A stretch of DNA of 40,834 bases, taken from contig JABWAU010000001.1 of assembly GCA_013360875.1 (NCBI GenBank), positions 1-40,834 of the forward strand, written 5' to 3'. Position numbers and translations under genes: made by a program. The notes under the pieces were generated by a model. It made no database searches and was not told the DNA's origin. It saw only the letters and a list, made by a program, of their open reading frames with translations. The stretch is from Anaerolineales bacterium (GTDB taxonomy: Bacteria > Chloroflexota > Anaerolineae > Anaerolineales > Villigracilaceae). Below are positions 4,205 through 18,190 of the stretch, one piece after another; within the stretch, counting starts at the first letter, position 1, and each line of letters opens with the position of its first letter.

Positions 4205-5434
4205 GTGAAACGAAACCTTTTTGCTTTACTCTCGCTGCTTGTGCTGGCAAGCATGGCATTGGCGGCATGTGGAGGCGGCGCGACGACAACAGAAGCGCCT
4301 GCGCCTCAGGAACCGGCGGCTCCAGCGACCGAGGAGCCGGCTGCCCCGCCGACCGAAGAACCAGCCGAACCTACCCCTGTCCCCCCTCAGCCGATCGCGA
4401 CCTTTGACGGAACCACGTTATCTGTTCCGGACTGCGATTACGGCGGTCTCTTCAAGTCCATTGAAGCCACAGATCAGTACACCGTTACGTTCACGATGTG
4501 CCAACCGGACCCAGCCTTCCTTTCGAAAATTGCCTTCAGCCCATTCGCTATTTATTCGAAAGAATGGATTGAGTCGACAGCTGGCGATACCAGCCGCACC
4601 AGCGAGGGACTCGAGAGACCCATCGGCACCGGTCCCTACATGGTCAGCGAATGGAATCGCGGCGAAAGCCTGACCTTCACCGCCTTCCCGGACTATTGGG
4701 GTGAGCCGCCCGCAGCTGAGACCTTGGTCTTCCGCTGGTCGAGCGAATCAGCCGCCCGCCTGACCGAACTTCAGGCTGGCACGGTTGACGGCATTGACAA
4801 CGTCGGTCCCGAGGATTTTGCAACTGTCGAGGGTGATCCCAACCTGCATCTGCAGATCCGTGAGGCGCTGAACACTTTCTATGTTGGCATGACCAATACT
4901 TTCCCGCCCTTTGACAAACTGGAGGTGCGCAAGGCTATTGCCATGGGTATTGACCGCCAGCGTATTGTGGACAACTTCTATCCGCCCGGCTCCGAGGTTG
5001 CCTCACACTTTACCCCCTGCGCCATTACCAATGGCTGCGAAGGCGAACCATGGTATGAATTCGACGTGGATGCAGCAAAAGCCTTGCTGGCTGAGGCCGG
5101 CTTCCCGGATGGCTTTTCCACCAAGTTATATTATCGTGATGTGGTGCGCGGTTACCTTCCACAGGTTTCCAATGTCGCTCAGGATATTCAGGCTCAATTG
5201 AAGGAAAACCTGAACATTGACGCCGAGATCGTGGTAATGGAATCCGGCGCCTTCATCGAGGAATCCGGCGCTGGTCGCCTCGATGGCTTGTATCTGCTGG
5301 GTTGGGGCGCCGATTACCCGCACGTGACAAACTTCCTGGATTATCACTTCGGCTCTGCCCAAAAGCAGTTTGCCACAGGGCGCTCGAATTGCCGATCCCT
5401 TAGAGGCTGCGCCCATTTACGAGCAGATCAATAA
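4205..5434 (+). CDS. Family-5 solute-binding lipoprotein, permuted, first part (frameshifted)
   Basis: Extracellular substrate-binding subunit of an oligopeptide/dipeptide-type ABC importer. It starts with GTG at 4205 behind GGAGGAG (4194-4200). A lipoprotein signal ends in LAACGGG, followed by an Ala/Pro/Glu/Thr linker. Domain order is odd: right after the linker comes the family's middle region (SIEATDQYTVTFTMCQPDP, PIGTGPYMVSEW, YWGEPP), continuing to the usual C-terminal lobe. The normal N-terminal lobe is missing here and is found at the C-terminus of the continuing frame (5370-5924). The frame ends in a non-homologous tail (after KQFATG) because of a frameshift near 5365-5385. Relative to the family about 12-15 residues also seem to be missing there, so a small deletion is likely. 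Confidence 0.85.
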   Translation: MKRNLFALLSLLVLASMALAACGGGATTTEAPAPQEPAAPATEEPAAPPTEEPAEPTPVPPQPIATFDGTTLSVPDCDYGGLFKSIEATDQYTVTFTMCQPDPAFLSKIAFSPFAIYSKEWIESTAGDTSRTSEGLERPIGTGPYMVSEWNRGESLTFTAFPDYWGEPPAAETLVFRWSSESAARLTELQAGTVDGIDNVGPEDFATVEGDPNLHLQIREALNTFYVGMTNTFPPFDKLEVRKAIAMGIDRQRIVDNFYPPGSEVASHFTPCAITNGCEGEPWYEFDVDAAKALLAEAGFPDGFSTKLYYRDVVRGYLPQVSNVAQDIQAQLKENLNIDAEIVVMESGAFIEESGAGRLDGLYLLGWGADYPHVTNFLDYHFGSAQKQFATGRSNCRSLRGCAHLRADQ

Positions 5435-5924
5435 TGCCATTCGCGAGTATGTACCTATGGTGCCGATCGCTCATGGAGGTAATGCTGCTGCCTACCGCGC
5501 TGATGTCACCAATCCGCAGGCCAGCCCGCTCACAACCGAGTTGTTCGCATTTTCTGACCCGGGCGGACGCGATATCTTCGTTTGGATGCAGAACGCTGAA
5601 CCGATTAGCCTGTTCTGCGCAGACGAGACCGATGGCGAATCGTTGCGCGCCTGTGAGCAGGTCACACAAGCGCTGTACGGCTTCGCAATCAACGATTCAG
5701 CTGTCGAACCTCATCTGGCTGAAGTTTGTGAGCCGAATGAAGACCTGACGGTGTGGGTGTGCAAACTGCGCCAGGGAGTCAAATTCCATGACGGCAGTGA
5801 TTTCGACTCCGCGGATGTCCTGGCGACCTTTGACATGGGCTTGAACATTGGATCGCCATACCACAAGGGCAATACCAACTTGTGGGAGTACTATGCCACA
5901 CTGTGGGGGTTGATGCAGAAGTAG
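5370..5924 (+). pseudogene. Family-5 solute-binding protein, second part after frameshift
   Basis: Continuation of the binding protein in the next frame. The first third (ARIADPLEAAPIYEQ, REYVPMVPIAHGG) is the end of the normal family fold. After DPGGRDIFVW the sequence becomes what is normally the N-terminal lobe: AEPISL, DGESLRACEQVTQALYGF, VEPHLAE, then LRQGVKFHDGSDFDSADV. This order means a circular permutation, not just a broken gene. There is no ribosome binding site for separate translation; the nearest start would be a TTG at 5370. The segment is therefore probably either not translated, or the frameshift is a sequencing or assembly error in an intact gene of about 580 aa. Confidence 0.75.
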
Positions 5925-17559: not shown

Positions 17560-17584
17560 AACCATTACTCATTAGGAAAACGAC

Positions 17585-18190
17585 GTGGACTTCAAACTGA
17601 CGATCTTCTCCGATTACATCTGACCGTGGTGTTACGTCGGCCAGGGTGTGGTCGAGAGGTTGAAGGAGGAATACAAAGTGGACGTGGAGTGGCGTCCGTT
17701 CTATCTGTATTTCGATACGCCACCCGAAGGCAGGGACCTGCCCGAATACATCAAGCAGAAACGCGCCATGGGGTCGGAGGATCGTCTGCGGCAGATCGCG
17801 GCTTTGCAGGGCATGGAGTTCAAATCCACCGAGCGCATTTACAACACGCGCCTCGCGCACGAAGCGACCGAGTTTGCGCGCGAACGCGGCAAAGCCAACG
17901 AATTCCATAAAATTGTTTTTCGCAATGTCTATGCGGAGGGGAAAGACCCAAGTCAGTGGGATATGTTGCGGTTCGCGGCGGAGGAAGTGGGCTTGAGTGC
18001 GGATGAGATGCAAGCCGATGTGGAAAGTGGAAAGTATAAAGGCAAGGTGGAGGAACAGGTGCGTTGGGCGTATCAGATCGGTGTGACGGGCGTGCCGACG
18101 TACGTCATCAACGACCGCTACGCCATCGTCGGCGCGCAACCGTACGAGGTATTCAGGAACGCGCTCGAGCAGATTCTGGGGAGGGCGTGA
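17585..18190 (+). CDS. DsbA/FrnE-family oxidoreductase, candidate selenoprotein (TGA at codon 13)
   Basis: A GTG start (17585) behind AGGA (17574-17577) opens a frame reading VDFKLTIFSDYI, then TGA (17621-17623), then PWCYVGQGVVERLKEEY and on to 18190. Family members have DYxCPWCxxG here, so TGA stands exactly for the first (nucleophilic) Cys of CxxC, giving U-P-W-C if decoded as selenocysteine. The remaining 188 codons are intact, with the cis-Pro loop in GVTGVPTYVINDRYAI and the end GAQPYEVFRNAL. An in-frame TAG at 17573 fixes the start. A SECIS-like hairpin follows (17637-17655). The protein is about 201 aa, normal for FrnE-like cytoplasmic thiol oxidoreductases. The alternative is a nonsense mutation or base error. 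An annotation ignoring TGA would start at 17648. Confidence 0.8.
17637..17655 (+). promoter_or_regulatory. Bacterial SECIS-like hairpin
   Basis: T-CGGCCA (17637-17643), loop GGGTG (17644-17648), TGGTCG-A (17649-17655): 7 bp including one G-U. The loop begins with G and starts 20 nt after the TGA. This matches the general bacterial SECIS description (short stem, small apical loop with an early G, loop about 16-37 nt past UGA). It lies within coding sequence, as bacterial SECIS elements do. Confidence 0.65.

Follow-up and report, generated by a model that had tools for sequence, protein, structure and literature searches.

The window, that is, the whole 40,834-nucleotide stretch of DNA analysed here (positions 1 to 40,834 of contig JABWAU010000001.1 of an Anaerolineales bacterium of the Villigracilaceae), carries on its forward strand, at positions 17585–18190, a gene for a FrnE-type DsbA selenoprotein of 201 residues. 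The gene begins with a GTG at 17585, seven bases 3′ of an AGGA (17574–17577) that is the likely ribosome-binding site and that recurs at similar spacing 5′ of the ATG in several relatives, and ends with a TGA at 18188–18190. Its only internal stop is another in-frame TGA at 17621–17623, which stands as codon 13 in place of the first cysteine of the active site (UPWC), the 188 codons from 14 to 201 being open up to the terminal TGA. The second active-site residue, Cys16, is encoded by TGT at 17630–17632, the only Cys codon of the protein and likely that of the resolving cysteine, and is followed by a SECIS-like hairpin at 17637–17655. The GTG start, the AGGA, the TGA of the active site and the hairpin had been described in a sequence-only reading of the same DNA, which considered the gene intact but for this one TGA and anticipated that automatic annotation would drop its first 21 codons; both points were borne out, since a mechanical ORF caller indeed started at GTG 17648 and lost precisely those codons. 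Since a plain ORF caller thus yields a shortened enzyme devoid of its active site, mis-annotation of such genes is an easy mistake in this lineage.

The simplest objection to a selenocysteine reading is that the TGA is a random nonsense codon, either of a dead gene or of a gene that in reality encodes cysteine; TGA is in fact a single base away from TGC and TGT, and the assembly is broken into 208 contigs. Relatives of the gene were compared at two depths. Among 396 genomes of the class, sampled evenly from a larger set, 59 had matches (E ≤ 1e-20), at 61 places, 60 of which were read (the second place in one genome, G027, being left out); codon 13 was aligned with TGA in 48 of the 60 and with TGC or TGT in 12, and an additional in-frame TAG was present in one of the 48 TGA loci (L055). 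Within the same family, 72 of 152 genomes searched had matches (E ≤ 1e-40), at 75 places, with one TGA in 70 of these and none in five. Together with six close places belonging to other families in the class, and with three named contigs, the 75 family places make 84 sequences, and removal of six identical ones leaves 78 distinct close homologues, 73 with TGA and five with TGC at codon 13. Thus, the exchange between TGA and the cysteine codons occurs at exactly this column in both sets, as the sequence-only reading had proposed to ascertain, and its contention that a random stop at this position is improbable is sustained by the recurrence of the same TGA in 73 of the 78 close homologues.

The five distinct TGC homologues are 63–74% identical to the window protein, and the cysteine versions are open from codon 1 onward without a stop. 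Two further cysteine sequences, L062 and L063, about 50% identical, are absent from the set of 78 although the tree described below places them within the Sec-bearing clade. A contig search with six seeds, one of which was DYICPWCY, supplied the cysteine outgroups of that tree; on account of this seed the Cys-only yield of the search is biased, and it was not used as a frequency. In the aligned stretch of the 73 TGA homologues no stop other than this TGA was found, except for six terminal TGAs, so that stops elsewhere in the gene, by which decay would betray itself in close relatives, are absent. Furthermore, among the 48 TGA members that share at least 70% identity with the window, the ratio pN/pS is 0.041 for codons 2–12 and 0.25 for codons 14–197, values that imply protein-coding selection in one and the same frame on either side of the TGA. 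The presence of the same TGA in many genomes without any other internal stop and the purifying selection on both its flanks make a pseudogene or a sequencing error exceedingly improbable, and this explanation was rejected. An observation apart concerns L059, a 97% identical copy in a metagenome-assembled genome labelled Planctomycetota, whose first base is the final one of the TGA, immediately ahead of codon 14, so that codon 13 is not shown; that label may have arisen through faulty binning or naming.

The same substitution data bear on the possibility that the true protein begins 3′ of the TGA, at the GTG 17648 picked by the mechanical ORF caller, and is devoid of the active site. The 11 codons between the start and the TGA are, judging from their pN/pS, under strong protein-level constraint, stricter in fact than that of the body of the gene; codon 1 is ATG in 54 of the 73 TGA homologues and GTG in two, the remaining 17 not being aligned there; and the cysteine versions can be read through from codon 1. 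A downstream start was rejected on these grounds, its likelihood being as negligible as that of an error, and the gene is taken to begin at GTG 17585 and to read through the TGA.

The predicted hairpin consists of two 7-nt arms, TCGGCCA (17637–17643) and TGGTCGA (17649–17655), closing the loop GGGTG (17644–17648); it begins 13 nt and its loop 20 nt past the TGA, and was re-found at the coordinates and with the geometry previously assigned to it. It conforms to the rule for bacterial SECIS elements as given in PMC1088965, namely a hairpin directly downstream of the codon with a small apical loop containing G. All seven pairs of the stem can form in 59 of the 73 TGA homologues and six of seven in the other 14, whereas the five TGC homologues retain 3, 4, 4, 4 and 6 pairs, so that in the cysteine versions the predicted hairpin is either weaker or gone. 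Codons 18–23 (V-G-Q-G-V-V), which lie over the hairpin, occupy ranks 1–6 for lowest codon variety among the 79 columns whose amino acid is conserved across the TGA members; their mean relative entropy is 0.12 vs 0.73 overall, and none of 100000 random column sets was as low. Also low is pS, which in the above subset of 48 TGA members is 0.093 for codons 17–24 as against 0.67 for codons 14–197, while the TGC members use different codons over the hairpin (e.g., GTG-GGT instead of GTC-GGC). By these patterns of codon usage, the putative SECIS is better conserved than the encoded residues alone would require. The fold of the isolated 50 nt from the TGA on is of unexceptional stability (z −0.58, with 50 of 200 shuffled sequences folding as well), and the stem varies too little for covariation to be demonstrated; it is by its conservation, not by its energy, that the hairpin is supported.

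A scan for hairpins according to rules taken from general knowledge (loop of 3–14 nt with a G in its first two positions, located 16–37 nt past the codon) gave, within the close group, a best hairpin of −6 kcal/mol or lower in 19 of 19 Sec genes and in one of four Cys genes, 16 of the 19 Sec genes exceeding 90% of the control positions within their own gene. Among the distant members, the signal was weak: −6 kcal/mol or lower was reached in 7 of 29 TGA and 4 of 36 Cys genes, and six of the 29 TGA genes surpassed 90% of their own control positions. Many of the distant TGA members, which are about 30% identical, carry another recurrent hairpin, CTCCA-GTT/GTC-TGGAG or near to it, with its loop 25 nt past the TGA (L049–L055, L057, L058 and others among L089–L118); this is perhaps the SECIS of a sister subfamily.

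The genome from which the window derives (3.99 Mb, 208 contigs, 96.5% complete) encodes the machinery for selenocysteine insertion. SelB was found with 345 bits (cut-off 242), SelD with 347 bits (cut-off 125) and tRNA-Sec with 70.4 bits (gathering score 47) and, by ARAGORN, the anticodon TCA; SelA is present as two contig-end pieces of 335 and 107 bits, the latter under the cut-off of 268. The search for selA, selB, selC and selD that the sequence-only reading had recommended therefore turned up all four, the split of SelA, whose pieces (L017 and L018) lie at the ends of contigs C50 and C112, being most likely an assembly break. By comparison, in 14 named control genomes the cut-off was exceeded by SelB in two, SelA in one, SelD in two and tRNA-Sec in five. 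The SelD gene itself (L019:1471-2529, contig C18) has an in-frame TGA at residue 21, within SACAGUASK, so that the genome holds at least one other selenoprotein candidate.

These data must be weighed against a third explanation, that the UGA is read as an amino acid other than selenocysteine, such as Cys or Trp. Unusual UGA-reading tRNAs exist in principle, and the decoding at this codon is predicted from sequence; both considerations count for this explanation. Against it stand the presence in the genome of the selenocysteine machinery, tRNA-Sec included, the retention of the hairpin in TGA members and its weakening or loss in Cys members, and the use by the window gene of UGA as its own ordinary terminator. 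Decoding as another amino acid was consequently rejected; it is highly improbable, if a shade less so than an error or a downstream start. On the strength of the machinery genes, of the TGA/Cys exchange at one and the same column and of the conservation of the hairpin, the gene, a member of the FrnE branch within the DsbA family, almost certainly encodes a true selenoprotein, and its UGA codon 13 would be decoded as Sec.

The distribution of SelB is of lesser weight. SelB exceeded the cut-off in 67 of 80 genomes tested, among which were all 18 of the close Sec genomes taken into the test (further family-level close Sec genomes lying outside it), and this co-occurrence constitutes weak evidence because all 11 same-family genomes without a match to the gene at 1e-20 also have SelB over the cut-off. 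SelB was under the cut-off in the remaining 13 genomes, six of which carry distant TGA relatives, about 30% identical (G057, G109, G135, G200, G207 and G278), and seven a Cys member (G083, G270, G288, G326, G399, G400 and G401). Five of these six TGA genomes are fragmented into 370–1250 contigs; the exception is G278, which is in 7 contigs and has its distant TGA member at locus L100 and no SelB match over the cut-off.

The protein matches PF01323 with 133.8 bits (cut-off 25.6) over profile positions 2–190 of 191, which places it in the DsbA family; none of the three other PF01323 matches over the cut-off in the same genome has an internal stop. An alignment of 26 rows, some of them obtained with the seed DYICPWCY, shows no variation at Cys16, nor at Pro171 of the G-V-P loop (18089–18097), the putative cis-proline loop. 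The AlphaFold2 model (pLDDT 94.9, pTM 0.90) has residue 13 just ahead of a helix spanning residues 14–29, and its best match in the PDB is FrnE of Deinococcus radiodurans (5cnw, 5cp1; TM 0.88, sequence E 1.2e-27), followed by Streptomyces coelicolor SCO1869 (TM 0.87, sequence E 1.7e-20). With FrnE closest in both sequence and fold, UPWC in the place of CP(W/F)C and no signal peptide recognizable by eye, the protein belongs to the FrnE subfamily. Another candidate family, NF041057 (Rcas_1661 family thioredoxin-like (seleno)lipoprotein), gave a weak and partial match to residues 90–196 and was rejected, the score being 40.4 bits against a cut-off of 190 and the family being described as a lipoprotein.

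The D. radiodurans enzyme has CPWC where the window protein has UPWC and is described in PMC8945050 as a disulfide reductase of the cytoplasm that also acts as an isomerase in vitro and whose mutant is sensitive to cadmium and diamide. The same source describes a C-terminal CxxxxC, found in many but not all FrnE members, that helps to regenerate the active site in D. radiodurans; this pair is absent from the window protein, in which Cys16 is the only cysteine besides Sec13. In the mechanism proposed here, the hairpin beginning 13 nt past the UGA would recruit SelB with its Sec-tRNA(Sec), and codon 13 would be decoded as selenocysteine. The modelled product has a thioredoxin-type fold with Sec13 just ahead of the first helix, followed by Pro-Trp-Cys16; by analogy with family and fold, Sec13 would attack the substrate disulfide as a selenolate and Cys16 would resolve the mixed selenenylsulfide. 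In the absence of a C-terminal CxxxxC the enzyme would have to be recycled by an outside reductant, and since no signal peptide is apparent by eye it is probably cytosolic. On this basis, the window protein is probably a cytosolic disulfide reductase or isomerase.

The history of the Sec/Cys exchange was traced on a tree of 85 rows in which residue 13 was masked and from which the distant TGA members were left out. The tree requires at least six changes between Sec and Cys (six throughout the 5%–95% bootstrap range), the simplest reading of which, with the Cys outgroups used, would be that Sec was gained once and gave way to Cys five times, the latter changes being located at L040+L169, L060, L061, L086 and L062+L063 (two Leptolinea rows). 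SelB is over the cut-off in the genomes of L040, L060, L061 and L086 but not in those of L062 and L063, the genome of L169 lying outside the SelB test. The ancestral state and the single gain are tentative, because the outgroups were Cys-seeded and the distant TGA members left out; firmer is the finding that the Cys rows are nested within the Sec rows. On balance we lean towards the view that there exists an Anaerolineales-centred clade of cytosolic FrnE selenoenzymes in which Sec has been replaced by Cys at least five times independently, four of these where a checked genome keeps SelB, with the hairpin weakened or gone each time. If so, the clade would offer a ready-made set of matched Sec/Cys enzymes from which to learn what a disulfide reductase gains from selenium; such paired versions permit a direct test of why a cytosolic disulfide reductase keeps or drops selenium.

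DsbA-like selenoproteins as such are not new. Those with a UxxC motif have been in print since 2005, when nine Sargasso Sea sequences were given as COG2761 (PMC1088965); four are found in PMC1794560, others in the GOS set (PMC2398784), a table row of PMC5029168 is devoted to the family (41 and 45), and two reviews mention them (PMC9312934, PMC13188914). As described there, the family (PF01323/COG2761) shares with the window protein a DSBA domain, Sec as the first residue of CxxC and a SECIS-like hairpin just downstream, a likeness that is one of description and not of sequence comparison with published members. Likened by description as well is the Sec-containing but eukaryotic FrnE of Mamiellophyceae green algae (PMC6627142). 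No Anaerolineales DsbA-like selenoprotein is named in the accessible parts of PMC1088965, PMC1794560, PMC2398784 and PMC5029168, although an overlap is possible with the three selenoproteins of three families that PMC1794560 reports, without naming them in the same portion of its text, in Chloroflexi. Nor was the clade found in the titles and abstract openings of papers on FrnE/DsbA-like selenoproteins or on Sec in Anaerolineales/Chloroflexota, whose supplements, outside this scope, may list it; Sec formate dehydrogenases have been reported in Anaerolineales (PMC4959059). The earlier view that a selenoprotein of this subfamily would be notable in this lineage was thus overstated, such UxxC proteins (COG2761) being long known, and the gene is a new and well-supported addition to a selenoprotein family that was known before.

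The gene neighbourhood is uninformative: in a comparison of 51 loci, at least seven from the genus of the window, which is itself counted among them, have in common an upstream gene on the other strand, which in the window encodes an adenosine deaminase, and the remaining loci have other neighbours. Elsewhere in the window, at 4205–5924 and ahead of two permease genes, two overlapping frames belong to solute-binding protein family 5, the first corresponding to profile positions 64–366 and the downstream one, near its end, to positions 2–56; the arrangement resembles a pair of substrate-binding genes that has been rearranged or has suffered a frameshift.
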